From Syntrophomonas sp. (GTDB taxonomy: Bacteria; Bacillota; Syntrophomonadia; Syntrophomonadales; Syntrophomonadaceae), in contig JAENZE010000001.1 in assembly GCA_016841425.1 (NCBI GenBank), positions 124,001-188,000 on the forward strand: a DNA stretch of 64,000 nt, written 5' to 3'. Under the pieces are notes generated by a model. That model was given only the letters and a program-made list of their open reading frames with translations, did no database searches and had not been told where the DNA came from. Shown in pieces: positions 35,616 through 54,524 of this stretch (positions within the stretch are counted from its first letter, which is position 1; every line of letters starts with the position of its first letter). The position numbers and the translations under genes were made by a program.

Positions 35616-35736
35616 TCTGGAAGCAGAAACCGATTTCGAATATCTCTTGAATTTGTCTGATCCCGACTTGCGCAGTGAAGCGGTAGAGCTTTATGATGGT
35701 ATATGCAGACTAAGAGAGAAGCTCCAGGAGCTGTAG
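35563..35736 (+). CDS. Small helical protein of unknown function
   Basis: A 57-aa highly charged helical protein (MEDLIRQLAARVVSRLDNLE, then FEYLLNLSDPDLRSEAVELY and REKLQEL). The GTG at 35563 is chosen because AAGGAGG ends six bases before it; the ATG at 35557 touches the binding site. It is not homologous to anything I recognise. It is boxed in by two palindromic repeat pairs and its stop codon touches the second one, so that hairpin may serve as its terminator. Real coding is supported by the strong binding site and non-random composition. Confidence 0.5.
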   Translation: MEDLIRQLAARVVSRLDNLEAETDFEYLLNLSDPDLRSEAVELYDGICRLREKLQEL

Positions 35737-35813
35737 GGCCACAGGGGGACGTTTTTGTTGTGGCCTTCTCTAATTGCTTAAAAGGCCACAACAAAAACGT
35801 CCCCCTGTGGCCC
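35736..35813. repeat. REPIN-like pair of related hairpin repeats (type B)
   Basis: A perfect 30-bp inverted repeat with an 18-bp spacer. Each arm is itself a hairpin: stem GGCCACA/TGTGGCC around the loop GGGGGACGTTTTTGT. Stem and loop lengths (7-15-7) equal those of type A, and 11 of 15 loop bases agree, while the stem is different but still paired. Confidence 0.9.
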
Positions 35814-35848
35814 TCTCCCCCTGTTTCCGATCCATAGAAAATCCCTGG

Positions 35849-35877
35849 TTGACACCGGATACATGCTTTGTTAATAT
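35849..35877 (+). promoter_or_regulatory. Sigma-A promoter of the purine-histidine cluster
   Basis: Consensus TTGACA (35849-35854) and TAATAT (35872-35877) with 17-bp spacing. Transcription would begin near 35884, leaving a leader of about 210 nt before purE. Confidence 0.85.
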
Positions 35878-35904
35878 CAAAGTGTAACTAAATACACAGA
35901 TAAA

Positions 35905-36002
35905 AACGCGAAAGTGTGTCTAGGGTTCCGCATACATTGCATGGACTGGTCCGAGTGACACAGGCGCTTGTCAAGCGCTACACCGTATAGGGATAAAAGC
36001 CC
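35905..36002 (+). ncRNA. ykkC-family riboswitch, probably the PRPP subtype
   Basis: The leader contains the conserved ykkC blocks in order: GTGTGTCTAGGGTTCCG, GGACTGGTCCGAGTGACAC and finally GGGATAAAAGCCC (35990-36002). This architecture is shared by guanidine-I, ppGpp and PRPP aptamers. Placement directly upstream of purE and a purine operon matches the PRPP class, which turns genes on when PRPP is high. No guanine aptamer is present in tandem. The last CCC also starts the terminator stem that follows, so ligand-bound aptamer and terminator should exclude each other. Subtype is inferred from context, not proven. Confidence 0.85.
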
Positions 36003-36050
36003 AGGCGGACAGGTTTCGGTTACGAAACTGCCCGCCTGGGTATTCTATTT
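35999..36050 (+). terminator. Riboswitch-controlled terminator
   Basis: GCCCAGGCGG (35999-36008) pairs with CCGCCTGGG (36032-36040), with an inner stem GTTTCG/CGAAAC, then a U-rich tail. Its 5' arm overlaps the aptamer's last helix, consistent with on/off switching before purE. Confidence 0.85.
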
Positions 36051-36095
36051 TAAAAGGGAGGTTAGTTTTTTTCATTAATAAGGGGGGTGTAATAG

Positions 36096-36611
36096 ATGCC
36101 TGATATCGGAATCATAATGGGCAGCGATTCTGATCTTAACATAATGAAGGAAGCCGGAGAAATCCTGGAGGAATTCGGTGTCAGCTACGAATATACCATA
36201 TGTTCTGCTCACCGCCTGCCGGAAGAAACTGCTGAATATGCTAAAAACGCTTCCAGTAAGGGTATGAAGGTAATCATTGCTGGTGCCGGGGGAGCAGCTC
36301 ATCTGCCGGGAGTTATCGCGGCATATACTGTTGTGCCAGTAGTTGGGGTTCCTATAAAAAGCAGCACTTTATCAGGAATTGACTCGCTATATTCAATAGT
36401 ACAAATGCCTAAAGGAATTCCAGTGGCTACGGTAGCCATCAATGGCAGTGCTAATGCTGCACTGTTAGCTGTACAGGTTCTTGCAGTAAGTGATGATGAT
36501 TTAAAAACGGCTTTGTTCAATTACCGACAGCGAATGGCTGATGGAGTGCTCCAAAAGGATAAAAAGCTTACGGAAATAGGAGTACAAGCGTATTTGGAGG
36601 ATAAGAAATAA
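36096..36611 (+). CDS. purE: N5-carboxyaminoimidazole ribonucleotide mutase PurE
   Basis: A 171-aa class I-like PurE that forms CAIR in purine synthesis. MGSDSDL, CSAHRLPEET and AGAGGAAHLPGVIAAYT are the expected motifs, followed by GVPIKSSTLSGIDSLYSIVQ. It is the first gene after the riboswitch, with AGGGGGGT before the ATG. Class I PurE normally needs PurK to make N5-CAIR, but purK is absent from this cluster; it may lie elsewhere or be dispensable at high CO2. The enzyme is cytoplasmic and octameric in the family. Confidence 0.96.
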   Translation: MPDIGIIMGSDSDLNIMKEAGEILEEFGVSYEYTICSAHRLPEETAEYAKNASSKGMKVIIAGAGGAAHLPGVIAAYTVVPVVGVPIKSSTLSGIDSLYSIVQMPKGIPVATVAINGSANAALLAVQVLAVSDDDLKTALFNYRQRMADGVLQKDKKLTEIGVQAYLEDKK

Positions 36612-36634
36612 GTATTTCGGGAGGATCTTAATCG

Positions 36635-37930
36635 ATGATAGATAGATATACTCTTCCTCGTATGGGAGCTATATGGTCAGAGGAGAATAAACTGCGAAAT
36701 TGGCTGAATATCGAAATAGCTGCTTGTGAAGGGCAAGCCCTTATTGGAAGCATTCCTGAAGCTGCAGTAGCAGTTATTCGCGAACGGGCTGACTTTGATA
36801 TCAAGAGAGTTAAAGAAATAGAAGATGAAGTACACCATGATGTTATTGCTTTTTTAACCAACGTTGCTGAATATGTGGGGGATGAGTCCAAGTACATACA
36901 CCTGGGTATGACTTCTTCTGATATTCTCGATACTGGATTGGCATTACAAATGAGGGATGCAGCGGATCTGATTTTGGAAAAGCTATTTAAGCTAAAAGAA
37001 CTGGTAGAAGAGAAGGCCAGGAAATATAAATATACTTTGAATATTGGACGAACTCATGGTATTCATGGAGAACCTACTACCTTTGGCCTGAAAATGGCCT
37101 TGTGGTATACCGAGATAGATCGTAATATCAAAAGACTGCAGGAGGCCAGGGAAGTAGTCTCCTGCGGTGCTATATCTGGAGCGGTAGGAAATTATGCTCA
37201 TTTGGATCCCCGGGTAGAAGAATATGTGTGTCAGAAGTTGGACCTCAAGCCCTGCCTGGTTTCAACCCAAATAATCCAAAGGGACCGCCATGCTCAATTT
37301 ATGACTACCCTGGCGGTAATTGCCAGTTCTCTTGAAAAAATGGCTACTGAGATTAGAAATCTGCAGCGAACAGAAATACTGGAAGCTGAAGAACCTTTTC
37401 GCAAGGGACAAAAAGGCTCGTCTGCTATGCCCCATAAAAGAAATCCCATGATGAGTGAGAGGGTAGCCGGGTTGTCCCGGGTTATCAGGGGACATGCCAT
37501 GGCGGCCTTGGAAAATGTAGCCCTGTGGCATGAACGGGATTTAACGCATTCATCAGTGGAAAGAGTCATTATTCCGGACAGTTGTGTACTCCTGGACTAC
37601 ATCCTGGAAAAATTCTGCGCTATTGTGGCTGGTCTGGTTATATATGAGGATAATATGATGGAAAATATTAATCGGACCCGGGGACTGATATTTTCTCAGG
37701 AACTCATGCTAACCCTGGTTAACAAAGGAATGCTCAGGGAAGATGCCTACCGTCTGGTACAAGGTCACGCCATGCGTAGTTGGGAGGAAAAGCTTGATTA
37801 CAAGGATCTCATACTACAAGATAGGGAAATTATGAATTTTATAAGCAGTTCAGAAATAGAGGTCATTTTTGACCTGAAGATTTATACCAACCATGTTGAT
37901 TATATATATAAACGCTGCGGACTAGCTTAA
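36635..37930 (+). CDS. purB: Adenylosuccinate lyase
   Basis: A 431-aa member of the fumarase/aspartase superfamily that removes fumarate from SAICAR and from adenylosuccinate. The signature GSSAMPHKRNP (about 262-272) holds the mobile catalytic loop; TSSDILDTG and GRTHGIHGEPTTFG supply the catalytic His residues. Length matches Firmicute PurB. It follows purE by 23 bp with GGGAGGA before the ATG. Because it works in both the IMP and AMP branches, its control by the cluster's PRPP leader affects both. Confidence 0.97.
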   Translation: MIDRYTLPRMGAIWSEENKLRNWLNIEIAACEGQALIGSIPEAAVAVIRERADFDIKRVKEIEDEVHHDVIAFLTNVAEYVGDESKYIHLGMTSSDILDTGLALQMRDAADLILEKLFKLKELVEEKARKYKYTLNIGRTHGIHGEPTTFGLKMALWYTEIDRNIKRLQEAREVVSCGAISGAVGNYAHLDPRVEEYVCQKLDLKPCLVSTQIIQRDRHAQFMTTLAVIASSLEKMATEIRNLQRTEILEAEEPFRKGQKGSSAMPHKRNPMMSERVAGLSRVIRGHAMAALENVALWHERDLTHSSVERVIIPDSCVLLDYILEKFCAIVAGLVIYEDNMMENINRTRGLIFSQELMLTLVNKGMLREDAYRLVQGHAMRSWEEKLDYKDLILQDREIMNFISSSEIEVIFDLKIYTNHVDYIYKRCGLA

Positions 37931-37951
37931 CAGCATAGGGAGGAAAGGGTA

Positions 37952-38665
37952 ATGGAAAAAAAGGAAAAGCTGTACGAAGGGAAAGCCAAGCAGATATACG
38001 CGGTTGAAGATGAGCGTTATCTCATTATGACCTACAAAGATGAGGCTACGGCCTTTGATGGAGCCAAAAAAGGAATCATTGAGAATAAAGGAATAGTAAA
38101 TAACCGGGTGTCCTGCCTGCTTTTTAAAATGCTGGAAGAAAGAGGGATAGAAACTCATCTGGTAGAGCAGATAGATGATAGAAATGTAATGGTGAAACGC
38201 CTAAATATGCTGCCGGTGGAGGTAGTGCTTCGAAACGTGGTGGCCGGAAGTTTATCCAAGCGATTGGGCATGGAAGAGGGAACCGCACTATCAGAACCAA
38301 TAGTGGAGCTTTATTATAAGAACGATGACCTGCACGATCCCATGATCAATGAATACCATGCCCGAGTTTTAGGTTGGGCTACCCTGGAACAGCTGGAAGA
38401 TATGCAAAAACAGGGCCTGGAGATTAATCAGATCCTGTTAAAGTTCTTTGATGATATTGGTGTGATACTGGTTGATTTCAAACTGGAGTTTGGGGTTTAC
38501 GACGGAAGAATAGTTTTGGGGGACGAAATATCCCCGGACAGCTGCCGGCTATGGGACAAAGTCAGTCTGGAGAAGCTGGATAAAGATCGTTTCCGCCGGG
38601 ATATGGGCGGAGAAGCAGAGGCTTATCAGGAAGTTGTGACAAGGATTGAAAAGGTGCTGGGATAA
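37952..38665 (+). CDS. purC: SAICAR synthetase
   Basis: A 237-aa ATP-dependent ligase that joins aspartate to CAIR. KLYEGKAKQIY at the N-terminus is the nucleotide-binding strand; VVLRNVVAGSL and LVDFKLEFG and EISPDSCRLWD are standard motifs. Length is typical for bacterial PurC. GGGAGGAAAGG precedes the ATG, 21 bp after purB. No anomalies are seen. Confidence 0.97.
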   Translation: MEKKEKLYEGKAKQIYAVEDERYLIMTYKDEATAFDGAKKGIIENKGIVNNRVSCLLFKMLEERGIETHLVEQIDDRNVMVKRLNMLPVEVVLRNVVAGSLSKRLGMEEGTALSEPIVELYYKNDDLHDPMINEYHARVLGWATLEQLEDMQKQGLEINQILLKFFDDIGVILVDFKLEFGVYDGRIVLGDEISPDSCRLWDKVSLEKLDKDRFRRDMGGEAEAYQEVVTRIEKVLG

Positions 38666-38699
38666 GCAACCTACTAATGGTATAGGAGGAGGCATAAAG

Positions 38700-38951
38700 G
38701 TGTTTAAAGCCAATATTTTCGTAACATTAAAGAACGGTGTGCTGGACCCCCAAGGGGAAGCGGTTAAAAAGTCATTAAAAGTTCTGGATTACGGACAGGT
38801 TGAAGAAGTGCGTATCGGGAAGTATATCGAAGTATGGCTGGAGGGCGGTGACCGTGATTCGGCCCTGAAAGAACTGGAAGAGATGAGTGATAGACTGCTT
38901 GCTAATCCGGTCATTGAAGACTACCGGGTCGAAATTGTGGAGGTAGAATAG
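38700..38951 (+). CDS. purS: Phosphoribosylformylglycinamidine synthase subunit PurS
   Basis: An 83-aa small subunit that bridges PurQ and PurL in the three-part FGAM synthase. The fold is one ferredoxin-like beta-alpha unit: [18 protein letters not shown], then [20 protein letters not shown] and [10 protein letters not shown]. The start is GTG at 38700, chosen because AGGAGGAGG lies nine bases upstream; a longer frame from 38646 overlaps purC and gives an abnormal extension. Two bases separate it from purQ. Confidence 0.95.
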
Positions 38952-38953
38952 CC

Positions 38954-39655
38954 ATGAAATTTGGGATAATAGTGTTTCCCGGTTCGAACTGCGACGCGGA
39001 TTGTTATCATGTTATAAAAGAAGTAATGAATCAGCCGGTTGAGTACATTTGGCACAAAGAAAATACTGTGGCTGGCTTTGATGCACTTATCCTACCCGGC
39101 GGCTTCTCTTATGGGGACTACTTGCGTACCGGTGCCATAGCCCGCTTTTCGCCGATAATGCCGGCGGTAATAGATTTTGCAGAACAGGGAGGACTGGTTA
39201 TTGGTATTTGCAATGGTTTTCAAATACTTCTGGAAGCCGGGTTATTACCTGGAGCCATGCTGAGAAACCGCAGCCTGAAGTTTATCTGCAAACCGGTTTT
39301 TCTGAAGGTCAATCGGGCTGATACCCCGTTTACCAACCACATGAAAGTCGACCAGGTGGTTCGGATACCGGTAGCTCATGGGGAAGGAAATTATTTCTGT
39401 GATCAAAATACCCTGCAGAGCCTGAAAGATAATGGTCAGATTATATTTACCTACTGCAGTGAAGATGGACAGGAGCTTCCAGAATTTAATCCCAACGGCT
39501 CACTGGCCAACATAGCCGGAATATGTAATATAAAGGGTAACGTACTGGGAATGATGCCCCACCCGGAGAGATGTTCGGAAGAGATTCTGGGAGGCCGAGA
39601 TGGCTTTTATATATTTGATTCAATGATTAATTGGCTTGAGGAGGTGGGGAAATAA
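38954..39655 (+). CDS. purQ: Phosphoribosylformylglycinamidine synthase subunit PurQ
   Basis: A 233-aa class I glutamine amidotransferase that supplies ammonia to PurL. The nucleophile Cys is in GICNGFQIL (about 84-92), and the His-Glu pair in MMPHPER near 195-201. FPGSNCDAD and [12 protein letters not shown] are further family marks. It overlaps the purL start by one base (TAATG), which indicates coupled translation and equal amounts of the subunits. Confidence 0.97.
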
Positions 39656-41856
39656 TGAAGGAAATGACCTATAAAGAGATGGGACTTCTAGACGAAGAAT
39701 ATGAGCAGATAAAGGAGATACTGGGCCGCCAGCCTAATTATCTGGAGCTAGGTATGTTTTCAGTAATGTGGTCCGAGCATTGCGGGTATAAAAATTCTCG
39801 TCCGTTGTTAAAGAATTTCCCTACTGAAGGACCCCAGGTTATACAGGGCCCGGGAGAAAATGCCGGGGTAGTTGATATCGGCGATGGGCAGGCACTGGTT
39901 TTTAAAATTGAGAGCCACAATCATCCATCTGCTATAGAACCGTATCAAGGAGCAGCCACCGGGGTAGGTGGGATTGTTCGGGATATCTTCACCATGGGAG
40001 CCAGACCTATTGCCTCATTGAACTCCCTGCGTTTTGGGAATCTGGATGATGAACGGGTAAAACAGCTTTTTTCTGGTGTAGTAGCGGGGATTGGAGATTA
40101 TGGCAACTGTCTGGGTATACCTACCGTTGGCGGCGAAGTATATTTTAATCCCGCTTACCAGGGCAATCCACTGGTAAACGCTATGTGCGTTGGCCTGGTA
40201 AATAAGGAAGAGATAGCCTATGCTACTGCCAGTGAGATAGGCAGCCCTCTCATGCTGGTAGGAGCCAGGACAGGCCGGGACGGTATTCATGGTGCCACCT
40301 TTGCTTCCGAGGAACTAAGCGAAGCTTCTCAGGAAAAAAGACCTTCAGTGCAGGTAGGAGACCCGTTCATGGAGAAACTGCTGATTGAAGCCTGTTTGGA
40401 ATTAATAAAAGAGGATTTGGTGGCTGGAATGCAGGACCTGGGTGCGGCAGGCCTAACCAGTTCTATAGCTGAATCTGCCAGTAAAAAGGGGCGGGGGGTA
40501 ATAGTTGACGTATCCCGGGTACCTCGCCGAGAAACAGGCATGATACCCTATGAAGTAATGCTGTCAGAATCCCAGGAGAGGATGCTTATTGTACCCCGGG
40601 AAGGCAAAGAAGGCAGAATCGGGGAGATATTTGATAAGTGGGGACTGGATGCAACTGTTATCGGTGAAGTGACTGATGATGGGATGTTTAAAGTTTTTGA
40701 AGGGTCTGTTCTGGTGGGCGCAGTACCGGTAGAAGCTTTGACCGAAGGCTGCCCGGTATATGTGCGAAAGGGACTGGAGCCGCCCTATTACAGAGAATGC
40801 CATGATTTCAATATAGATAACCTGGCTGAATGCGATGCCGGGGAGGCTTTAAGCAAGCTGCTGGCTTCACCTAATATCGCTAGTAAAAAGTGGGTATATA
40901 ATCAATATGATCATCAGGTAATGACCAACTCGGCAATAGTGCCTGGTGATGCTGATGCTGCAGTACTTAGAATCAAGGGCTATCAAAAAGGGGTTGCCCT
41001 GGCTACCGACTGCAATGGCCGCATGGTTTACCTGGATCCTTATCAGGGAGGGATGATGGCGGTATGTGAAGGAGCACGCAATCTTGCCTGTGTAGGAGCT
41101 AAACCTCTAGCGCTTACCAACTGCCTCAATTTTGGGAGTCCCGAGAATCCACATATATACTGGCAGATGCAGGAAGCTATTAAAGGTATGTCCGAAGCAG
41201 CTAAAGTACTGGGTACACCGGTAGTTAGCGGCAATGTGAGCCTGTATAATGAAACTGTTGACGGAGCCATATTTCCTACTCCCGTGGTAGGTATGGTAGG
41301 ATTATTAGAAGATATTGATAAACGCTGCCAGATGGCTTTCCAGGATGAAGGTGATCTGATAATACTTCTGGGTAGGGCTAGAGAGGAACTGGGCGGATCT
41401 GAATATTTGTTTGTCTGCCATGGGGTAGAAAAAGGGTCAGTACCAGAGATCGATCTGGAAGAGGAAAAGAATTTAATAAATCTGTTGCTAAGTCTTACGG
41501 AAGCGGATCTGGTAAAATCCTGCCATGATATTTCGGAAGGCGGCCTGGCAGCAGCCCTGGCCGAATCCTCCATCAAAGGTAGTACTGGCTTTAATGTAGA
41601 TTTAGATTTTAAGGGGAGCAGGAAAGACCGGTTTCTCTTCTCAGAAGCGCCCAGCCGGGTAGTGGCTAGCCTGGACGAAAAGGATCTGACTGCGGTAAGA
41701 AACTTATCGGCTCAGTTTGGTATAGAAATAAGCATACTCGGTAAAGTGGGCGGAAATAAGATGATTTTCAATGACCATGGTATAGAATTCATCAACCTGG
41801 AAGTGCAGGATGCTGCAAAGATCTGGGGGGAGGCCATAGAATGCCACATGAAATAG
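39655..41856 (+). CDS. purL: Phosphoribosylformylglycinamidine synthase subunit PurL
   Basis: A 733-aa small-type PurL that converts FGAR to FGAM with ATP and PurQ-derived ammonia. [20 protein letters not shown] near 83-102 and [15 protein letters not shown] are the nucleotide-binding region; two AIRS-like halves are apparent (second begins near 400). The small size fits with separate purS and purQ in the same operon. Its 3' end overlaps purF by 16 bp. No frameshift is present. Confidence 0.97.
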
Positions 41857-43232
41857 GTGATAAGTTTAAAGACGAATGTGGGGTGTTCGGGGTCTTTTTG
41901 AACGAGCCGGAGAATGATACTGATGCAGCCACTACTGCTTTTTATGGTCTTTATGCTCTACAGCATCGGGGACAGGAGAGTGCCGGGATAGCAGTATCCA
42001 ATGGCCATAAAATTCAGCTGCACAAAGGCATGGGACTGGTTACTGATGTAATCAAACCGGATATTATTAAAAAGCTGCAGGGCAATATAGCTATAGCTCA
42101 TGTTCGCTATTCGACCACCGGAGAAAGCAGTATAGTCAATGCCCAGCCCATGGTTTTTCATTATTTGCAGGGAATGCTGGGGGTGGCTCATAACGGCAAC
42201 CTGACTAATACGGTTGAATTGAGAAAACAGCTGGCTACCTATGGTTCGGTATTCCAAACTACTACCGACACGGAACTGGTGGCTAATCTTCTGGCCCGCT
42301 ATTCACAGGATAAGCTGGAAGATGGTCTTACCAAATGTATGATAGATTTAAAAGGAGCATTTGCCCTGATAATACTAACTGAAGATCGTATGGTAGGAGT
42401 TCGTGACCATATGGGGATCCGACCGTTATGCCTGGGAGACTATCAGGGCAACTATGTGCTGGCATCTGAATCAGCAGCCCTGGATACCATTGGAGCTCAA
42501 TTTATTAGGGATATCAAGCCTGGAGAGATTGTTATAATTGATAAAAATGGGTTGAAATCCAGCCAGGTGGTAAATTCTCCCCGCTGTGCCCACTGTGTGT
42601 TTGAATACATCTATTTTGCCAGGCCCGATAGCACCATGGATGGCTTAAATGTATACCAGGCCCGAAGGGAAATGGGTAAACAGCTGGCCCGAGAAAGCGA
42701 TATAGATGCGGATATGGTTATTTCGGTACCTGATTCCGGCACAGCTGCTGCATTGGGTTATGCCGAAGAATCTGGAATTCCTTTTCAGGATGGCTTGATG
42801 AAAAATCGCTATGTGGGCAGGACATTTATACAACCAACCCAGAGTATGAGAGAATTAAGCGTTCGTCTTAAGCTGAATGCAGTCGGTAAAATAGTATCTG
42901 GGAAAAAATTGATAATGGTGGATGATTCCATTGTAAGAGGAACCACCAGTAAACAGATCGTGCAGATGCTCAGGGATGCGGGTGCCAAAGAAGTGCACAT
43001 GGCAGTATCTTCACCCCCTACAAAATATCCCTGTTATTACGGTATAGATACCTCTCGCCGAGAAGAACTGATTGCCAGCAAGCTTGAAGTTGAAGAGATA
43101 CAGCAGTTCATAGGGGCTGATAGCTTGAATTATCTCAGCCGGGAAGGAATGTTCAAGGCTATGGGAGGCAACTCTGAGAAATACTGTGATGCATGCTTTA
43201 GTGGTTTTTATCCGGCTGGAGTAGAAAGTTAG
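41841..43232 (+). CDS. purF: Amidophosphoribosyltransferase
   Basis: A 463-aa first enzyme of purine synthesis, making phosphoribosylamine from PRPP and glutamine. The catalytic Cys is residue 13 (ECGVFG), so a short propeptide must be removed, as in Bacillus Pur[13 protein letters not shown] and the PRPP loop [15 protein letters not shown] are clear. Cysteines near the C-terminus ([11 protein letters not shown]) match the oxygen-labile 4Fe-4S type, in line with an anaerobe. It is the PRPP-committing step, so control by a PRPP riboswitch is apt. The start overlaps purL. Confidence 0.97.
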
Positions 43233-43318
43233 CTTGAGACGATTTGTAATTGGGTAAGGCAATAGAGATTGGGACACCTGAAGAGGTGACCGGTTATCAT
43301 TGGGTTGGGAGGTTTAAC

Positions 43319-44356
43319 ATGGAGAAAACCGGGCTAAGTTATAAAGATGCCGGAGTCGATATAGATGCTGCAAACCAATCAGTGGATATGATCAAGAAAT
43401 GGGTAGGCATGACCAGCAGACCGGAGGTGCTTACCGAGATAGGCTCTTTTGGCGGGCTTTTTGCCCTGGATACAGCCAGGTATAAAGAGCCGGTTCTAGT
43501 CTCCGGGACTGATGGTGTGGGTACTAAATTAAAAATAGCTCAGATGACAGGAATTAGTGATACTGTGGGTATAGATCTGGTGGCCATGTGTGTCAATGAC
43601 ATACTGGTACACGGGGCCGAACCCTTATTCTTTTTAGATTATATAGCGGTAGGTGAGCTAAAACCGGAGCTTATAGAATCTCTGGTTAAAGGTGTAAGCC
43701 AGGGCTGCCTGCAGGCAGGATGTGCATTAATCGGAGGCGAAACTGCAGAGATGCCAGGACTTTATGATGCAGACGAATATGATCTGGCAGGTTTTGCAGT
43801 AGGAGTAGTAGAACGTTCAAAAATAATAGATGGAAAAAAGATCAAGGATGAAGACGTGATCATCGCTCTTCCATCAACGGGTATACATTCTAACGGGTAT
43901 TCACTGGCGCGTAAAGTACTGCTGGAACGAGCAGGTCTTAAAATGGATGATTATATCGAGGAATTGGGAAATACCCTGGGTGAAGTCCTCTTAACGCCTA
44001 CTCGCATTTATGTAAAAACAGTTCTTGCCCTGCTGGAGGAAGTTGAAGTACATGGCATGGCTCATATAACCGGAGGAGGAATTGTAGAAAATCTGCAGCG
44101 TATTCTTCCCGAAGGAATAGGAGCGGTAATAGAGACTTCCCAGGTCACGGTGCCTACGATATTCGACCTGATGCAAAACCTGGGCCAGATACCGAAGGAA
44201 GAAATGTATCGTACCTTTAATATGGGTATCGGTTATATCCTGGTCATTTCCCCTGATAAGTTCAGTACCGCCCTAAAGCACTTGCGCGATAAAGGGGAAA
44301 AGCCGATAATTATAGGGAGAATTACCAGCCAGGAAAAAGGGGTGGTGGTGAAATGA
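43319..44356 (+). CDS. purM: Phosphoribosylformylglycinamidine cyclo-ligase
   Basis: A 345-aa AIR synthetase that closes the imidazole ring with [23 protein letters not shown] near the N-terminus, [25 protein letters not shown] and [18 protein letters not shown] are typical. The ATG at 43319 follows GGGAGG and gives the usual length; an open frame continues upstream to 43250 without a matching site. Its stop overlaps the purN start (ATGA). Confidence 0.97.
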
Positions 44357-44997
44357 AGCAGCTCATGGAAGCCAAGCACCTCAGGCTAGCGGTATTGGCA
44401 TCTGGTAGAGGAAGTAATTTTGACGCTATATGTGAAGCGATAGATAAAAAGGTACTGGATGCTGAAATCTCAGTTTTAATTAGTGACAACCCCAATGCCC
44501 CGGCCCTGCAAAAAGCAGCTGCCAGAGGCATTGAGGCCTTACATATTAACCCCCGGGAGTTTGCCGGACGTGATGACTATGAAGCGGTTCTGGTTCGCGA
44601 ACTAAGGGCAAGAAACGCAGACCTGGTGATCCTGGCCGGTTATATGAGGCTGGTGGGAAAGGTATTCTTGTCTGCCTTTGAAAACCGGGTACTAAATATT
44701 CATCCGGCCCTCTTGCCTTCTTTCCAGGGCCTGCATGCGCAGCAGCAAGCCCTTGATTATGGGGTCAGAATCAGTGGCTGTACAGTGCATATCGTTGACG
44801 AAGGAATGGATACCGGACCTATTATCCTGCAAAAGGAAGTGCCGGTTTATGACACAGATAATGAGGAGACCCTCTCTGAGAGGATACTTCTGGAAGAACA
44901 CCAGATATACCAGCAGGCCTTGCAGCTGATAGCTGAAGGCCGGGTATGGATAGAAGGAAGAAGGGTATTCATACAAAAACAATCCGGGGAGGCTTAA
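44353..44997 (+). CDS. purN: Phosphoribosylglycinamide formyltransferase
   Basis: A 214-aa folate-dependent GAR transformylase. [11 protein letters not shown] starts the fold; [20 protein letters not shown] and [19 protein letters not shown] contain the catalytic His and Asp. Length is slightly above the common 200 because of an N-terminal [11 protein letters not shown]. The start overlaps purM by four bases. The same frame remains open for about 40 codons after the TAA, up to a stop inside purH; I regard that as accidental. Confidence 0.95.
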
Positions 44998-45091
44998 GCT
45001 GACCTGGTTCATTATTTGGCGAGGCATGAATGTTCAGTTATTCAGGCCCTGGCCGCCTACAATAGTTTTATGATAAAGGGGGAGCCCGTCT

Positions 45092-46612
45092 ATGAAGAGA
45101 GCCTTAATAAGTGTTTCTAATAAGGATGGAATTGTAGATTTTGCTCGGGGCCTGGAAGAAATAGGCTTCGAAATAGTATCTACTGGCGGAACATATCAGA
45201 CTCTGCAGGACGCAGGGGTAAAGGTTATGAAAGTATCTGAACTTACCGGGTTTCCAGAAATCCTGGATGGAAGGGTAAAGACCCTGCATCCTAAAGTGCA
45301 TGGTGGTATTTTAGCCCGGCGTACGGATGATCATCTGCAGCAGCTGCAAGATAATGAAATCGATACCATAGATATGATCTGTGTTAATCTCTATCCCTTC
45401 CGGGAAACAGTTAGCAAAGAACAGGTGAGTCTGGAAGATGCCATAGAGAACATCGATATTGGCGGCCCTACCATGATCAGGTCAGCGGCCAAGAATTACC
45501 ATGATGTAATCGTAATAGTCAAGCCCGAGCTCTACCAACCGGTTTTAAAGACCCTGCAGGAACAGGGTGACCTAGGCTTAGATATGCGATTAAAGCTGGC
45601 TCTGGAAGCTTTCAGCCATACTGCCTCCTATGATGCCATGATAACTGCTTATCTCTCAAAGATAACGGGCACCGTTTTTGGTGATAATTTCGTACTGGCT
45701 GGTGAAAAGGTATATGAACTGCGTTATGGGGAAAATCCTCACCAGAGAGCATGTTTTTATCGTAATATGACTCCTGGTACCGGTTTGCCTGATGCTGTGC
45801 AGTTAAATGGCAAAGAATTATCATACAACAATATTATTGATGTGCAGGCGGCCTGGGCGCTGGCCAAGGAGTTTTCTGATCCAGCCTGTGTGATCATTAA
45901 ACATACCAATCCCTGCGGTACCGCAGTAGGAAATGAACTGAGCGAAGCATATGACCGGGCTTTTGACGGAGATCCGGTTTCAGCTTTCGGGGGCATTATT
46001 GCTTTCAATAGGACCGTAGATGCAAAAACAGCCGAAAAAGCAGCCGGTCCTTTCATGGAAGCTATCATTGCTCCTGGTTATGAAGAAGCAGCCCTGACAA
46101 TACTGCAGAGCAAGAAGAATCTGCGGGTTCTGGAACTCCCTATTAACCATGGAGAAGGTTTGCAGCTCAGGACGGTGGAAGGGGGATTTGTGCTGCAGGA
46201 TCCTGATACCGACGATGTCGGTCCTGCTGATCTTAAAGTAGTGACTGATACTGCTCCCACCGATGAACAGATTAAGGATTTGCTCTTCGCCTGGAAAGTA
46301 GTCAAGCATGTTAAATCCAATGCTATTGTAGTGGCCAAAGACCACATGACACTGGGAGTCGGAGCAGGACAGATGAACCGGGTTGGCTCAGCTCTTATTG
46401 CTCTGGAGCAGGGTGGTGAGAAATGCCAGGGGGCGGTCATGGCTTCCGATGCCTTTTTCCCGTTTAAAGATACAGTGGAAATGGCTTCCCGCTACGGGAT
46501 TAAGGCCATTATACAGCCAGGAGGTTCTATAAGAGATCAAGAGAGCATTGATGAATGTAATCGTCAGGGAATTGCTATGGTGTTTACAGATATACGGCAT
46601 TTTAGACACTAA
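45092..46612 (+). CDS. purH: Bifunctional AICAR formyltransferase / IMP cyclohydrolase
   Basis: A 506-aa enzyme that catalyses the last two steps to IMP. The N-terminal cyclohydrolase (about 1-195) begins [20 protein letters not shown]; the C-terminal AICAR transformylase has [11 protein letters not shown] and [14 protein letters not shown] made as a by-product by HisH/HisF also enters here, linking it with the downstream his genes. AAAGGGGGAG lies before the ATG. The 94-bp gap after purN is the largest within the pur part. Confidence 0.97.
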
Positions 46613-46655
46613 GAGATAAAAGCATAAGCCGAGTTTAGAACAGGGAGGTTTAAAA

Positions 46656-47933
46656 TTGGGTAAGAAAGTACTGCTTATTGGGCAAGGGGGCAGGGAACAC
46701 GCCCTGGCCTGGAAAATTGCTCAGAGCCCGGACCTGGAGAGGTTGTATGCTGCTCCTGGCAACCCGGGTATGGCTGAGTTGTGTGAATGCATTAATATTG
46801 AGGCCCATGACGTAGAAAAATTGCTGCAATTTGCACTGGCAGAGAATATCGATCTCACGGTAGTAGGCCCCGAGGCTCCTTTGATGGCAGGTATTGTAGA
46901 TCGGTTTTGCGAAAATGGCCTTACTATCTTTGGACCTACTGCAGCTGCAGCAAAATTAGAAGGAAGCAAGGTTTTTACCAAGAACCTCTTTAACAAATAT
47001 AGTATTCCAACGGCTAAATATGATATCTTCAGTGATATTGAACAAGCCCGGGAGCATATTAAAACCTATACTGACCTGGGAAAACCGGTGGTAATAAAAG
47101 CGGACGGGCTGGCCGCAGGTAAAGGCGTAGTTGTGGCAGCAGATTATCAAGAAGCCAGCCAGGCTATTGATTCCATAATGAGAGATAAAGAGTTTGGCAC
47201 AGCCGGTGACAAGGTGGTTATAGAAGAATGCCTTTTCGGACAGGAGGTCAGCTTTTTTGCTATCAGTGATGGAAAGAATTTCGTACCACTGGTATCAGCT
47301 CAAGACCACAAACAGGTATTTGATAATGATCAAGGCCCCAATACCGGCGGCATGGGTGCGTACTGCAACCCTCCCATTTATACTCCGGAGCTGCATGCGG
47401 TAGTTCTGGATACTATTATTGCCCCGGTAGTTGAAGCGATGGCTGCCGAAGGGACTCCTTACCAGGGAGTATTATATGCTGGATTGATGATTACTGAAGA
47501 AGGTCCCAAGGTGCTGGAGTTTAATGCCCGGTTCGGAGACCCGGAAACGCAGGCGGTAATGCCCTTGATAAAAAGTGATATCCTTCCGCTGCTGGAGGCA
47601 GCAGCCCAGGGCCGTTTAGAAAACTATCAGGTTCAAATCGATACTGGAACCTGCATATGCGTAGTTCTGGCTTCAGGAGGCTATCCGGGCAGTTATGAAA
47701 AAGGCAAAATGATACAGGGGATTGATCAAGTAGATCCGGATACCCTTATTTTTCATGCAGGGACTGTTAAGAGAGACAATGGTTTTTATACCAGCGGTGG
47801 CCGGGTACTAGCCGTGGTTAGCCGGGGCGAAAATATTAAAAACGCCATTGATAAGGTTTACCAGGAAGTTAAGAAGATTAATTTCGATAACATGCATTAT
47901 CGTACTGACATTGGGAGAAAAGCACTGATATAG
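46656..47933 (+). CDS. purD: Phosphoribosylamine-glycine ligase
   Basis: A 425-aa ATP-grasp ligase that makes GAR. VLLIGQGGREHALAWKI is the N-terminal Rossmann motif; KADGLAAGKGVVVA and GPNTGGMGAYCNPP are ATP-grasp and substrate regions, and EFNARFGDPETQAV is the metal-binding segment. The start is TTG with CAGGGAGG seven bases upstream; no ATG is available nearby. It ends the pur block. Confidence 0.97.
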   Translation: MGKKVLLIGQGGREHALAWKIAQSPDLERLYAAPGNPGMAELCECINIEAHDVEKLLQFALAENIDLTVVGPEAPLMAGIVDRFCENGLTIFGPTAAAAKLEGSKVFTKNLFNKYSIPTAKYDIFSDIEQAREHIKTYTDLGKPVVIKADGLAAGKGVVVAADYQEASQAIDSIMRDKEFGTAGDKVVIEECLFGQEVSFFAISDGKNFVPLVSAQDHKQVFDNDQGPNTGGMGAYCNPPIYTPELHAVVLDTIIAPVVEAMAAEGTPYQGVLYAGLMITEEGPKVLEFNARFGDPETQAVMPLIKSDILPLLEAAAQGRLENYQVQIDTGTCICVVLASGGYPGSYEKGKMIQGIDQVDPDTLIFHAGTVKRDNGFYTSGGRVLAVVSRGENIKNAIDKVYQEVKKINFDNMHYRTDIGRKALI

Positions 47934-47944
47934 GAGTAGATAAT

Positions 47945-48478
47945 ATGAATCCCAATCTAATTCCCTTTATAAGGGTAGGAGCATTCATAGCCCTGGCAGC
48001 TATGCTGCTGTACCTGCCGACCCGGGAATTTTTAAAAACAACTTTTATGCTGGGAATACCTTTTATCTTTATCCTGGCTTTTATGAAAAAGACCAGAAGG
48101 TACTCTTTACCCTGGATAACAGCTATAATACTAGCGGTTGTTACAGTAGGTGGATACATATACATGCTGACCGATTTGCCGCAGCGAATAGCCACCCATC
48201 AGATTGTCATTGATGGAACTGCATTGCTGACTGATGGTGAGTATGAGGCTGCTGCGGACAAATTCAGCGAACTTGAACAGTATGGCGATATAAATACTAT
48301 GGATGAAAAACTAGCCCTGGTAGAAAAGGAAAAAGACGCTGCCTTTCTGCTGGAGCAGGCCAAGGTGCTGGTGCAATCCGGAGAAAAGGATCAAGCCCTG
48401 GTGCTTCTCGAATCTGTGCCTTCAGATACCAGAGCCCATAAGGAAGCAGCCGGACTGATAAAAACTTTAGAGGAGTAG
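47945..48478 (+). CDS. Membrane protein with a helical repeat tail, unknown function
   Basis: A 177-aa protein with three hydrophobic segments in the first 90 residues (FIRVGAFIALAAMLLYL, TFMLGIPFIFILAF, ITAIILAVVTVGGYIYML). A soluble tail with TPR-like helices follows (YEAAADKFSELEQYGDINTM, then AAFLLEQAKVLVQSGEKDQA). No family is recognised. It is embedded between purD and the HD gene with 11-bp gaps, so it is cotranscribed with purine and histidine genes. A link with those pathways is not evident; it may be a passenger. Confidence 0.7.
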   Translation: MNPNLIPFIRVGAFIALAAMLLYLPTREFLKTTFMLGIPFIFILAFMKKTRRYSLPWITAIILAVVTVGGYIYMLTDLPQRIATHQIVIDGTALLTDGEYEAAADKFSELEQYGDINTMDEKLALVEKEKDAAFLLEQAKVLVQSGEKDQALVLLESVPSDTRAHKEAAGLIKTLEE

Positions 48479-48488: not shown

Positions 48489-49151
48489 ATGGTTACACTT
48501 GAACAGGTCAAAGCAAATACTATGGTACAGGCCTACATGAGGCTGGGCAATGAGTACATCGGAACCCTGGGAGCCATTGAACATAATCTAAACCATGCGG
48601 AATATGTTTCCATGCTTAGTCACGAAATACTTAAGAAACTCGGTTTCTCCGAAAGACAGTCTGAGCTAGGGGCAATAGCGGGTTACCTGCATGATATAGG
48701 CAATCTGGTTAATCGCTATGGGCACGGTATGTCTGGTGCCCTGCTGGCGTTTGATACCTTGATGGAGATGGGTATGGATCCAGCAGAAATTGCGGCTGTT
48801 ATGGGAGCCATAGGAAATCATGAGGAGCACGCAGGAGGTAACAGCGTTAATGTTATAGGAGCAGCTTTGATACTAGCTGATAAGTCGGATGTGCACCGTT
48901 CCCGGGTTAGAAAACATGAGATTTCTTCCTTTACTCCAAGGGATAGAGTAAACTATGCAGTAACCGATACTAACCTCCTGATCGATGCAGATAATAAACT
49001 TATTTCTTTGAAAATCGATATTGATACGGAAGTATGTTCAGTTATGGAGTATTTTGAGATATTTCTAACCAAAATGCTAATGTGCAGACGGGCAGCTCAA
49101 TACCTCAATTGTGAATTTGCGCTGCTGGTAAACAATAACCGACTGTTATAA
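48489..49151 (+). CDS. HD-domain phosphohydrolase
   Basis: A 220-aa HD-superfamily protein. Probable metal ligands are the His in LNHAEYVSMLSHEI, HDIGN (about 62-66), NHEEHAG (about 115-121) and the Asp in ILADKSDVHRSRVR. The C-terminal domain of about 65 residues is beta-rich. HD enzymes remove phosphate from nucleotides and other phosphomonoesters or diesters. It sits between purD and hisZ. The cluster lacks a recognisable histidinol-phosphate phosphatase, so this gene is one candidate, and a nucleotide phosphatase is another; neither is shown. Confidence 0.8.
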   Translation: MVTLEQVKANTMVQAYMRLGNEYIGTLGAIEHNLNHAEYVSMLSHEILKKLGFSERQSELGAIAGYLHDIGNLVNRYGHGMSGALLAFDTLMEMGMDPAEIAAVMGAIGNHEEHAGGNSVNVIGAALILADKSDVHRSRVRKHEISSFTPRDRVNYAVTDTNLLIDADNKLISLKIDIDTEVCSVMEYFEIFLTKMLMCRRAAQYLNCEFALLVNNNRLL

Positions 49152-49164
49152 GGAGCAGATAAAG

Positions 49165-50316
49165 ATGAGAAATAGGCAAATTCCAAGAGGATTGCGTGAT
49201 TTACTGCCGGAAGAAGCAAAAGTGATGAGAAGCATGGAGAAAAAGGCCGCCCAGCTTTTTTCCAGCTATGCTTATGAAGAAGTTATGACACCAACTTTCG
49301 AGTTTCTCGAAGTGATTGAAGCAGGAAGAGGCAGCAGAAGGGAAGACTTATTTCTCTTCATGGACCGGGAGGGAGGCATCCTGTCCCTGCGGCCAGAAGT
49401 AACCGGGTCTATTGCCCGCATGGCATCTACCCACCTGCATGATGCTGATTTTCCTCGTCGGCTTTTCTATACCGCTAATGTATTTCGTCATGTGCAGCCC
49501 CAGTTGGCTCAATATCGGGAATTTAGACAGACCGGGGTAGAACTGCTGGGAGCAGCCGGCGTATGGGCAGATGCCGAGGTGGTAAATATTGCAGTAAAAC
49601 TGCTGGAACGGATGGGTTTGGATAGATTTAAGATAAGTATCAATCAACTTCCTATATTTAACAGTATTCTGGACGACAGCGGCCTGAATGCTGAGGATCG
49701 GACTCTGGTTCGAAAACTGGTGGAGGATAAAGACCTGGTTGCACTGTCCAGCCTCTTAGAAGAGCTTCATATAGAAGATGATTTAAAAGATACTATTGCC
49801 GCCCTGCCAGTTTTACACGGGGGGCTGGAAGTGGTTCATCACATACCTTATGTAGAAAAAAACCGCAATGCATCAGCAGCAGTAGAAGAGCTGATGAAAC
49901 TATACGATGCGTTAAAAATATATGGGGTTACATCTAATATTGTAGTAGATATGGGTGTACTTAGAAATCTAGATTATTATACCGGTCTGGTGTTTGAGGG
50001 TTATTCATCCAAACTGGGCTACGGCCTTCTGGGAGGAGGGCGCTATGATAACCTGCTCGGGCAGTTTGGATTGACCTGTCCCGCTACAGGTTTTGCCCTG
50101 CACATGGATCGCCTGGCTCTAGTTTTAAAATGCCGGGATGAAGAACAGGATCGGTATCTGGTGGGTGGAAATAATTATCCAGCCATGATAGAAAAATCAG
50201 AGCAACTGAGAGAACAGGGGTTCATTGTAGAAATGGATCTGGGGGAACACAGTCAAGCCCAGCTGGAGAAGAGAATCAGCGGACTAGATAATTGGACCCT
50301 CTTGTATTTGGAATAG
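49165..50316 (+). CDS. hisZ: ATP phosphoribosyltransferase regulatory subunit
   Basis: A 383-aa class II aminoacyl-tRNA synthetase paralogue that binds short HisG and makes it sensitive to histidine. RGLRDLLPEEAKVMRSME, SLRPEVTGSIARMA and REFRQTGVELLG are histidyl-tRNA synthetase-like core motifs. YGLLGGGRYDNLLGQFG is motif 3-like. The anticodon-binding domain of a true HisRS is lacking or reduced, which fits HisZ. It begins the his portion, 13 bp after the HD gene, and is followed by short hisG. Confidence 0.95.
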   Translation: MRNRQIPRGLRDLLPEEAKVMRSMEKKAAQLFSSYAYEEVMTPTFEFLEVIEAGRGSRREDLFLFMDREGGILSLRPEVTGSIARMASTHLHDADFPRRLFYTANVFRHVQPQLAQYREFRQTGVELLGAAGVWADAEVVNIAVKLLERMGLDRFKISINQLPIFNSILDDSGLNAEDRTLVRKLVEDKDLVALSSLLEELHIEDDLKDTIAALPVLHGGLEVVHHIPYVEKNRNASAAVEELMKLYDALKIYGVTSNIVVDMGVLRNLDYYTGLVFEGYSSKLGYGLLGGGRYDNLLGQFGLTCPATGFALHMDRLALVLKCRDEEQDRYLVGGNNYPAMIEKSEQLREQGFIVEMDLGEHSQAQLEKRISGLDNWTLLYLE

Positions 50317-50357
50317 GGGTACCACAGAGTTTTCCCGTATATATTAGGAGGAGAAAG

Positions 50358-51014
50358 ATGCAGCAGGAATATTTAACTATTGCTTTATCAAAAGGAACCC
50401 TACTTAACCCAACTGTCGAACTGCTTCAAAAGGCTGGTCTGCCGGTCAGCGGATTGAGTGAAGACAGTCGCAATATGGTTTTTTCTTATGAGGATGAGGG
50501 TATTAAATATCTGATGTGCCGTCCTACTGATGTACCCACTTATGTAGAACAGGGTGCCGCTGATCTGGGAATAGTAGGTAAAGATGTCATTGTGGAACAG
50601 GCTAAAGACGTTTTCGAAATGGTAGATTTACAGTACGGTTACTGCCGCTTTGTGGTTGCAGTACCTGCCTATATGAAAGACAAACATATCCGGGAACTCA
50701 ATTATCGGAGAGTTGCCAGCAAATTCCCCCTGATAGCAGAGAAATTCTTCCGCGAACAGGGACTGCAGGTAGATGTTATCAAGCTGCATGGTAACGTAGA
50801 ACTTGCACCGTTGATGGGTCTGGCGGATATGATTGTAGACCTGGTTTCCACCGGGAGGACTCTTAAAGAGAATAACCTGGTAGAGCTGGTGAAAATAATG
50901 GATTCGACGACCAGGCTTATTTGTAATCGGGTCAGTTATAGGACTAAACACGAAAACATTCAGCCGCTTATAGAAAATATGCAGAAAATAGTGAAGGGTG
51001 GGGACAGCACATGA
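50358..51014 (+). CDS. hisG: ATP phosphoribosyltransferase, short form
   Basis: A 218-aa catalytic subunit that joins PRPP and ATP, the first step of histidine synthesis. The C-terminal regulatory domain of long HisG is missing, as expected when HisZ is present. TIALSKGTLLNPTVELLQKA, AADLGIVGKDVI and DMIVDLVSTGRTLKEN (PRPP loop) are clear. ATG at 50358 follows TTAGGAGGAG; a longer frame from 50292 overlaps hisZ. Its stop overlaps hisD by four bases. Confidence 0.97.
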   Translation: MQQEYLTIALSKGTLLNPTVELLQKAGLPVSGLSEDSRNMVFSYEDEGIKYLMCRPTDVPTYVEQGAADLGIVGKDVIVEQAKDVFEMVDLQYGYCRFVVAVPAYMKDKHIRELNYRRVASKFPLIAEKFFREQGLQVDVIKLHGNVELAPLMGLADMIVDLVSTGRTLKENNLVELVKIMDSTTRLICNRVSYRTKHENIQPLIENMQKIVKGGDST

Positions 51015-52303
51015 GATTGCGCAGAATCAAAGCCTCAAGTCAGGACTTACAAACTTTTCTACAATCTAATTATGATGATATGAAAAAGTATGAAGATATA
51101 GTACGGGAGATTGGTCAGGAAGTGAAACAACGGGGCAATCAGGCGGTATTTGATTTCAACTTGAAATTTGATGGTGCCCCCATAAACGAAGCAAATTTTA
51201 TGGTTAGTGAAGCAGAGTTTGAAGCAGCCTATGATGATGTAGATGATGAGTATATTTTTGCGCTGCGGGCGGCCATTGATAACATAGCCGAGTTTCATTC
51301 CCGGCAGTTGAGAAATTCCTGGATGGAACCTGACCAGAGAGGTTGCATATTGGGGCAGATATATCGCCCCCTGGAAAGAGTGGGGATTTATGTGCCAGGA
51401 GGTACGGCAGCTTATCCTTCTTCGGTGCTGATGAATGCCATACCGGCACAGGTAGCGGGCGTAGAACAGATAGTGATGGTAAGTCCACCCGGGCAGGATG
51501 GTAAGATGAATCCTTATACCTTGGTAGCAGCTAATGAACTGGGTCTCCAGGAAGTATATAAGATGGGTGGCGCCCATGCCATTTTCGCTCTGGCCTGGGG
51601 AACTGATACGATAAGAAAGGTAGACTTGATAAGCGGACCAGGTAATATATATGTGACCCTGGCCAAGAAAATGGTTTATGGAGATGTAAATATCGATATG
51701 CTGGCTGGTCCGAGTGAGATACTGATCCTGGCCGATGAGTATGCCAACCCGGCATATTTAGCAGCAGATATGATGTCTCAAGCTGAACATGATGTACTCG
51801 CTAGAAGTATTCTGGTCAGTAATGATCCAGGATTATTAGATCGGGTAGAAGAGGAACTAAACCGGCAGATACAGGACCTTTCCCGCCGGGATATTGTTGA
51901 GCAGGCCCTCAACAGCTATGGGGCATTGATACTAGCAGATAATATGAAGGAAGCGTGTGAGGTCGCCAATCTCATAGCACCGGAACATTTAGAACTTATG
52001 GTTGAACATCCCTTTGATCTGCTCAGCAAAATAAAAAATGCCGGAGCAATTTTTATGGGCCGTTATACCCCTGAACCAGTTGGAGACTATTTTGCCGGCC
52101 CCAACCATATACTCCCTACCGGGGGAACTGCCCGGTTTTATTCGCCAGTCAGTGTCGATACTTTTATCAAGGCTTCCAGCTTGATATATTACTCGGAACA
52201 AGGAATAAAAGAGGATGCCGACGAAATTATTAAGCTGGCCCAGGTTGAGGGACTTAGTGCTCATGCTAATTCGGTGAGAGTTAGAAAGGATAGTGATAAT
52301 TGA
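51011..52303 (+). CDS. hisD: Histidinol dehydrogenase
   Basis: A 430-aa zinc- and NAD-dependent enzyme that oxidises histidinol to histidine in two steps. YVPGGTAAYPSSVLMNAIPA, KMGGAHAIFALAWGTDTI, SGPGNIYVTLAKK and DMMSQAEHD (with the Gln and His zinc ligands) are present, and APEHLEL follows later. Length is standard. It overlaps both hisG and hisB, so translation of the three is coupled. Confidence 0.97.
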   Translation: MRLRRIKASSQDLQTFLQSNYDDMKKYEDIVREIGQEVKQRGNQAVFDFNLKFDGAPINEANFMVSEAEFEAAYDDVDDEYIFALRAAIDNIAEFHSRQLRNSWMEPDQRGCILGQIYRPLERVGIYVPGGTAAYPSSVLMNAIPAQVAGVEQIVMVSPPGQDGKMNPYTLVAANELGLQEVYKMGGAHAIFALAWGTDTIRKVDLISGPGNIYVTLAKKMVYGDVNIDMLAGPSEILILADEYANPAYLAADMMSQAEHDVLARSILVSNDPGLLDRVEEELNRQIQDLSRRDIVEQALNSYGALILADNMKEACEVANLIAPEHLELMVEHPFDLLSKIKNAGAIFMGRYTPEPVGDYFAGPNHILPTGGTARFYSPVSVDTFIKASSLIYYSEQGIKEDADEIIKLAQVEGLSAHANSVRVRKDSDN

Positions 52304-52896
52304 TGGAAAGAGTAAGAACAGCGGAAGTACAAAGAAAAACCAGTGAAACAGAAGTTTTGCTGCAGTTAGACCTGGATGGAACAGGCAGCCATCAAATCGA
52401 TACCGAGATTCCGTTCTTAAGCCATATGCTCACTTTACTTTCACTGCATAGTCTTTGTGATTTAAAGGTTACTGCCCGGGGAGACATCGAAGTAGATGAC
52501 CATCATACCGTAGAAGATATTGGGATATGTTTGGGGCAGGCATTGGATCAGGCCCTAAGGGAAAAAAGAGGTATCCGCAGGTATGGGGAAGCAACCATAC
52601 CAATGGATGAAGCTTTGAGCAGGGTAGTGTTAGATCTATCCGGCCGATCAGCGTTAATTTATAATGTCGAATTAGAAAGGAACTCAATTGGGAATTTTGC
52701 CACGGAAAATGCCCAGGAGTTCTTTAAGGCAGTAGCCAATAGCGCTCGGATGGGTATACATATTGATGTTATAAGAGGAACTAATTCCCATCATATACTA
52801 GAATCAATTTTTAAAGCATTTGCCCGCGCTTTAAAGGCGGCCGTAGAAATAGAACCGCGTATGGAAGGAATATGGTCATCCAAAGGTAAGCTTTAA
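52303..52896 (+). CDS. hisB: Imidazoleglycerol-phosphate dehydratase
   Basis: A 197-aa single-function IGP dehydratase (no phosphatase domain). The two metal-binding motifs HHTVEDIG and HHILESIFKAFARAL are present, plus PMDEALSRVVLDLSGR. The ATG overlaps the hisD stop as TGATG. Histidinol-phosphate phosphatase must therefore be supplied by another gene. AGGA lies upstream at acceptable distance. Confidence 0.96.
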   Translation: MERVRTAEVQRKTSETEVLLQLDLDGTGSHQIDTEIPFLSHMLTLLSLHSLCDLKVTARGDIEVDDHHTVEDIGICLGQALDQALREKRGIRRYGEATIPMDEALSRVVLDLSGRSALIYNVELERNSIGNFATENAQEFFKAVANSARMGIHIDVIRGTNSHHILESIFKAFARALKAAVEIEPRMEGIWSSKGKL

Positions 52897-52942
52897 AAGA
52901 ACAGAAGTAATTAGGTAAGGTTTAAGTCCGGGGGGAGTAAAT

Positions 52943-53548
52943 TTGATAGCTATAATAGACTATGGGGTTGGCAATCTGGCCAGTGTCAGGAATGCTTTTA
53001 TAAAGCTTGGTTTTGAAGCAGCTATAACCAGCAGCAGTGAGGAAATACTGAAGGCGGACCGGGTAGTGCTTCCGGGAGTTGGCGCTTTTGCTGATGCTAT
53101 GGATAACCTGCGCCGCTATGGACTGGATGGTACAGTAAAACAAGTGGTACAGCAGGGCACACCATTTTTGGGTGTATGTTTGGGTTTGCATTTGCTTTTC
53201 ACTCAAGGTGAGGAACACGGTATACACGAAGGTTTGGATATTATGAAAGGCCGGGTAGTGAAATTTCAGCTGCCACGTCAATACAAGGTGCCGCACATGG
53301 GCTGGAATCAAGTTTGGCCCAGGGAAGACAGCCGGCTGTTTAGAGGCCTGCCTGCAGGCAGCCACTTCTATTTTGTACATTCCTATTATGTGCTTCCAGA
53401 TGATGATGCGGTTATAGCTGCCCACAGTGATTATGGAATGGATTTTGTGTGTGCGGTGGAACATAAAAATATATTTGCCACCCAGTTTCATCCCGAGAAA
53501 TCAGGGCAGGTAGGGTTGCAGGTGCTGCAGAACTTTGCCAGTCTTTGA
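52943..53548 (+). CDS. hisH: Imidazole glycerol phosphate synthase, glutaminase subunit
   Basis: A 201-aa class I glutamine amidotransferase that feeds ammonia to HisF. IAIIDYGVGNLASVRNAF opens the fold, LPGVGAFADAM follows, the nucleophile Cys is in GVCLGLHLLF and the His-Glu pair in FHPEKSG. The start is TTG at 52943, with GGGGGAG close upstream. A gap of 216 bp without a recognisable gene separates it from hisA. Confidence 0.96.
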   Translation: MIAIIDYGVGNLASVRNAFIKLGFEAAITSSSEEILKADRVVLPGVGAFADAMDNLRRYGLDGTVKQVVQQGTPFLGVCLGLHLLFTQGEEHGIHEGLDIMKGRVVKFQLPRQYKVPHMGWNQVWPREDSRLFRGLPAGSHFYFVHSYYVLPDDDAVIAAHSDYGMDFVCAVEHKNIFATQFHPEKSGQVGLQVLQNFASL

Positions 53549-53764
53549 TGATAGCCTGATAAAGATATTCAGACTCGTTGGTGGCCGGTCTTTAGTTAGA
53601 AGAATACCAAACTGCACGTTTCTGTTAGGATAAAGCCATGCAGCGAAGTCTCTGAATGCTTGCCCGCTGTACTCTGTTTAAGACAGATCCTCCCTGGCCA
53701 GGTGATACTAATCTTAAGCCTTTTGAAACTGGCCGAGTAAAAATTATGATGAGGTGTAGTAAAG

Positions 53765-54493
53765 ATGATTATATATCCCGCTATTGACCTTAAAGATGGC
53801 CAGTGTGTTAGGCTGGTACAGGGCAGAGCCGATGCCAAGACTGTATACTCCAATACTCCTGCCCAGGTGGCAGCATCCTTTCAAAAGCAGGGAGCGGCCT
53901 ATCTTCATGTTGTCGATTTAGACGGAGCATTTACCGGCAGTCCTCAAAATGCAGCTGCCATTGAAGCAATTGCAGCCAGTATCAATATTCCTTTCCAGGT
54001 AGGAGGAGGACTACGCAGTGTAGATGATGTGCAGAGGGTATTGGATTTAGGTGCCACCCGGGCTATTGTGGGGACTAGCGCCGTAAAGAGTCCGGATTTT
54101 GTAAAAAAACTGCTGGATCGTTTTGGGACCGAGCAGATAGTACTGGGCATAGATGCCCGAGAGGGTATGGTTGCGGTAGAGGGATGGGTAGAGACATCTG
54201 CCTTAAGCGCCTTGGAATTCGGGGATAGTATGAAGAACATAGGGGTTACTACCTGTGTCTTTACTGATATCAGCCGCGATGGCCTTTTAAATGGCCCTAA
54301 CCTGGATTCGACCCGGCAGATGGCTGAAAAAACCGGTCTTAAAATCATTGCTTCAGGAGGGGTATCCAGCCCGCAGAATATAAAGGATCTTAAGGCTGTC
54401 GAACCCTTCGGAGTGGTGGGTGCGATTATCGGCAAAGCATTATATGATGGTAAAATAAATCTATTGCAGGCACTAGAAGCCGCAGACGATTGA
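53765..54493 (+). CDS. hisA: ProFAR isomerase (HisA)
   Basis: A 242-aa TIM-barrel isomerase. YPAIDLKDGQCVRL carries the first catalytic Asp and FTDISRDGLLNGPN the second. VGGGLRSVDDVQRVLDLGA is the phosphate-binding half. ATG follows a weak GAGGTG. No fusion with TrpF activity can be judged from sequence. Confidence 0.96.
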   Translation: MIIYPAIDLKDGQCVRLVQGRADAKTVYSNTPAQVAASFQKQGAAYLHVVDLDGAFTGSPQNAAAIEAIAASINIPFQVGGGLRSVDDVQRVLDLGATRAIVGTSAVKSPDFVKKLLDRFGTEQIVLGIDAREGMVAVEGWVETSALSALEFGDSMKNIGVTTCVFTDISRDGLLNGPNLDSTRQMAEKTGLKIIASGGVSSPQNIKDLKAVEPFGVVGAIIGKALYDGKINLLQALEAADD

Positions 54494-54524
54494 TCAAGAT
54501 GTAAAAGCTTGAGGAGGGGAGCAT

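Follow-up and report, generated by a model that had tools for sequence, protein, structure and literature searches.

A probable singlet PRPP riboswitch heads a purine-histidine gene cluster in Syntrophomonas, where histidine genes lacking their own repressor appear to share its transcript

The stretch of DNA analyzed here (the window) comprises 64,000 nucleotides from Syntrophomonas sp. and carries, at positions 36096-55930, a cluster of eleven pur genes, two unassigned genes, and eight his genes, all on the + strand and mostly separated by short gaps. This is the purine-histidine cluster of about 20 kb described in a first-pass annotation of the sequence, and its first gene, as stated there, is purE (a TIGR01162 match). 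Between 35849 and 36053 lie a promoter, a leader of about 25 nt, an aptamer with the ykkC fold, and a terminator hairpin whose end is about 55 nt from purE. Residue numbers in the following list are those of the Thermoanaerobacter mathranii PRPP aptamer structure, as fixed by the wild-type and G96A primers in PMC6031431.

35849..35877, + strand: sigma-A-type promoter TTGACA-17-TAATAT with an extended -10 TG, kept in the leaders of the family
35908..36026, + strand: putative PRPP (ykkC subtype 2b) aptamer region, from the match to a PRPP model built outside the family
35909..35912, + strand: P0 5' strand, CGAA (model alignment)
35913 and 35914, + strand: ligand contacts A5 and G6, after the P0 5' strand (primer numbering, PMC6031431)
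35955..35956, + strand: G48 and pyrimidine 49, the latter U35956 (sequence; PMC6031431)
35981..35984, + strand: C75-A76-C77-C78, binding pocket (sequence; PMC6031431)
36004, + strand: G96, which selects PRPP over ppGpp (sequence, primer numbering)
within 36009..36018, + strand: contacts A101 (36009), A103 (36011), G104 (36012), and G105 (36013) (sequence, model alignment)
36015-36018, + strand: P0 3' strand, UUCG (model alignment)
36000..36040, + strand: intrinsic terminator hairpin, its 5' arm being the 3' strand of P3 and P0; the stem covaries in 67 leaders
36041..36053, + strand: U-rich, interrupted terminator tail UAUUCUAUUUUA (sequence, leader comparison)
36096..47933, + strand: purE, purB, purC, purS, purQ, purL, purF, purM, purN, purH, and purD (NCBIfam)
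47945..48478, + strand: gene for a membrane/TPR-like protein, kept at this place in the family
48489..49151, + strand: gene for an HD-domain protein, kept at this place in the family
49152..49164, + strand: 13-nt gap from the HD gene to hisZ, the site of hisR in most relatives
49165..55930, + strand: hisZ, hisG, hisD, hisB, hisH, hisA, hisF, and hisIE

The promoter consists of a -35 element at 35849-35854 and, after a 17-nt spacer, a -10 element at 35872-35877 with the TG upstream of it. Its consensus character had already been recognized, and the same promoter, in both place and sequence, precedes the aptamer in most Syntrophomonadaceae. Directly 5' of it is a perfect inverted repeat (35735-35814, arms of 33 nt, loop of 14 nt) of which the genome has about eight complete copies and several partial ones. 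MicroRNA-family matches to this repeat in a relaxed Rfam scan were dismissed as an artefact of its perfect symmetry. The genome also has nine matches to Y1 (IS200-like/RAYT-type) transposases, one of them at 59918-60724; a link between these and the repeat is a guess.

Rfam family RF00442 matched 35909-36009 with 65.5 bits (E 2.2e-9 over the 64-kb window; gathering cut-off, 63 bits). This family takes in the guanidine-I, ppGpp, and PRPP aptamers together, and none of the three had a family of its own in the hit list of this Rfam release (nor did PRPP or ppGpp in a relaxed scan), so Rfam alone cannot decide the ligand. Relatives came from a family search that covered 54 Syntrophomonadaceae genomes, from a wider class group, from the phylum, and from a pattern scan of named genomes. 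Against the window, a PRPP model (18 leaders outside the family of the window, picked by downstream pur genes or PRPP-type residues) scored 107.1 bits, a ppGpp-like model (13 leaders) 75.4 bits, and a guanidine-I model (17 leaders, three of them from the family of the window) 57.6 bits. The PRPP model placed the aptamer at 35908-36026 (E 3.9e-31), its sole match in the window, and together with the RF00442 hit it bears out the ykkC assignment of the first-pass annotation, for which a clearly higher guanidine-I or ppGpp score was to count against PRPP; the outcome was the opposite. Held-out leaders sorted correctly, the guanidine-type L005, L006, and L170 scoring highest with the guanidine model and the ppGpp-like L089 with the ppGpp model, which indicates that the comparison discriminates among the three classes.

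The residues that distinguish these classes in published structures gave a concordant picture. All 13 of the T. mathranii pocket and marker residues checked were identical in the window or within class, and P0 was present as CGAA/UUCG together with A5, G6, A103, G104, and G105. Position 49 is a pyrimidine, as in PRPP aptamers, and not the A46 that guanidine-I aptamers carry at the equivalent position (PMC6031431). Position 96 is a G, which is found in more than 97% of PRPP aptamers, whereas ppGpp aptamers are reported to have A, C, or U there or to lack the nucleotide (PMC6031431). Since the G96A change alone converts the T. mathranii aptamer to a ppGpp aptamer (PMC6031431), G36004 is the key residue here. 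Among 60 distinct related leaders, retrieved with a search pattern that left both positions free, all 60 had U or C at position 49 and G at position 96.

The proposal that a ppGpp riboswitch (subtype 2a) activates the purine and histidine genes during the stringent response draws on the second-best model score, on the many positions and the large part of the fold that ppGpp and PRPP aptamers have in common, and on histidine synthesis being an amino acid pathway. It is nonetheless very improbable, given a ppGpp score 32 bits under that of the PRPP model, the PRPP-type G at position 96, and a gene context that does not fit: of eight genes tested downstream of the ppGpp-like leaders, six could be named (leuA, two ilvE, citramalate synthase, and two gltB), as expected for that class, and none of these is a pur gene, whereas purE follows the leader in the window. 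The name of RF00442, and a match to it that lies barely over the cut-off, would suggest a guanidine-I riboswitch. We give this identification next to no credence, because it received the lowest of the three model scores, because true guanidine-I members in the same bacterial family reach 75-88 bits with RF00442 and carry the marker A rather than U, and because the leader is followed by purine genes and not by guanidine exporters or carboxylases.

For the aptamer helices, 98.4% of the predicted pairs were standard in 70 distinct aligned sequences, and double changes occurred at 11 of 29 pairs, which none of 500 shuffles equaled; this alignment was fitted to the model, so the statistics favor the model. 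Sliding the pairing partners abolished the covariation signal. P0 paired in 99.6% of cases across the 70 sequences, and being nearly invariant it contributed little covariation of its own. The terminator arms (36000-36015 and 36025-36040) form a stem of -31.5 kcal/mol, and the sequence of the 5' arm, CCCAGGCGGACAGGTTTCG, is also the 3' strand of P3 and P0, in agreement with the overlap between terminator and last aptamer helix reported earlier. The partner arm covaries with it, one pair being C-G, U-A, U-G, or G-C among the leaders. Because the arm is shared, the terminator and the ligand-bound aptamer should be mutually exclusive, which predicts an ON switch; such behavior has been measured for the singlet riboswitch of Heliobacterium modesticaldum purB (PMC5912903). 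The U-tract is weaker than in many relatives, and its interruption may make termination leaky.

Rfam found neither a purine (guanine) aptamer nor a T-box or any further riboswitch in the window, the purine riboswitch being absent at a relaxed threshold as well, so the earlier statement that no guanine aptamer stands in tandem holds. The leader shares the PRPP aptamer half and the terminator logic of the tandem guanine-PRPP riboswitch of the Bacillus megaterium codA leader (PMC5912903), but without a guanine aptamer upstream it would form no IMPLY gate. It resembles much more fully the singlet PRPP riboswitches of H. modesticaldum purB and T. mathranii (PMC5912903, PMC6031431), with which it has in common the fold, P0, the checked specificity residues, a terminator overlapping P3 and P0, the ON logic, downstream purine genes (here purE and ten further pur genes), and the lack of a guanine aptamer. 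On model scores and structure-derived residues, the PRPP reading put forward in the first-pass annotation is upheld, and the purE leader is very probably a singlet ykkC subtype 2b PRPP riboswitch acting as an ON switch by transcription antitermination. Both the class and the mechanism are known (Sherlock 2018; Knappenberger 2018), and singlet PRPP riboswitches before purine genes have been published (PMC5912903); the reading is correct but not novel. Unlike those examples, in this case the ligand is read from sequence and the downstream unit also holds the his operon.

In most of the Syntrophomonadaceae genomes sampled, the aptamer sits 5' of purE. Another 24 loci of the family extend far enough for comparison, and each has, on a single strand, the aptamer, then the pur genes (fewer in some loci), the HD gene, and hisZ. 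Three genomes of sister families show the same arrangement; the unit purEBCSQLFMNHD-membrane/TPR-HD-hisZGDBHAFIE is conserved across the order. The membrane/TPR-like and HD genes (47945-49151) are retained family-wide between purD and hisR or hisZ. Some relatives have split pur genes and two PRPP aptamers (L046 in G045, at 821-865 and 18920-18967; L037 and L039 in G046), one before purE-purM-... and the other before purB or a purL remnant-purF-hisF.

Sixteen of the 24 loci have hisR, encoding a TrpR-family histidine repressor, between the HD gene and hisZ, in most cases 15-36 nt past the HD gene. A stretch of about 320 nt before hisZ in relatives, considered as a possible leader, proved to be this gene. 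A 2022 survey of HisR noted hisR beside his genes in some Syntrophomonadaceae, and its main text makes no mention of purine genes or PRPP (PMC9413887). Unlike these hisR-bearing loci, the cluster in the window belongs to a genome and a genus without hisR: family searches, on which our genome-wide statements rest, found none in five genomes of the genus (completeness, 99-100%), nor in another genus and some single genomes. In a sister genome (L034, 5687-5897), short GGGGACACACC-type repeats occupy the place of hisR, suggesting a repeat-associated loss of the gene.

No T-box or other leader was detected by Rfam before hisZ in seven relatives' loci, and a scan of relatives' clusters for HisR operators (published consensus cacTTTAn6TAAAgtg) gave scores no better than those of shuffled sequence. 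PurR was discarded as an additional regulator, since no B. subtilis-type PurR scored above cut-off in the genome, where only weaker phosphoribosyltransferase-type matches were seen. With neither a T-box nor a nearby internal promoter found, PRPP is the only visible regulatory input for these his genes.

The leader might instead govern the pur genes only, with a separate promoter, located within the HD or membrane-protein gene, driving the his genes. Internal promoters are common in long operons, and hisR just before hisZ in relatives implies some separate control of his there (PMC9413887). We consider this arrangement rather unlikely, as just 13 nt precede hisZ, a promoter scan found no forward site in 47003-49300 and fewer sites than in shuffles, and the window has no T-box, nor any of the five genus genomes a hisR. 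Possible promoters within coding sequence and the hisH-hisA gap of 216-217 nt (53549-53764) count against co-transcription of the his genes; the gap has no RNA family match and is similar or larger elsewhere in the genus (L032, L034, L184).

Judging from contiguity, from scans that revealed no other regulators, and from the loss of hisR, the his genes without their own repressor appear to share a transcript with the pur genes. In the mechanism that we infer, nascent RNA without PRPP would fold into the hairpin 36000-36040, drawing the 3' strands of P3 and P0 into its 5' arm, and halt transcription; PRPP bound in the P3/P0/P1a pocket would hold P0 and P3 and block the hairpin, letting polymerase enter purE and presumably read through the whole unit of about 20 kb as far as hisIE. 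PurF and HisG both use PRPP as a substrate; an excess of PRPP would therefore turn on both pathways that consume it. Tentatively, and with somewhat less than even confidence, we suggest that a single PRPP riboswitch serves this genus as the sole dedicated regulator of histidine as well as purine synthesis, that it took over his once HisR was lost, and that PRPP supply, not histidine, sets his transcription. A literature search of partial coverage returned nothing linking PRPP riboswitches to the control of histidine genes.

The purE leader, which would pass for a guanidine-I riboswitch under the Rfam name, confirms and extends a known riboswitch class, and dozens of related leaders could be used as training data. 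The new point is small: histidine genes that have lost their own repressor apparently lie on a PRPP-switched transcript. Such an arrangement would make PRPP a shared signal for the PurF and HisG pathways and may represent a natural case of a riboswitch widening its reach after the loss of a protein repressor.
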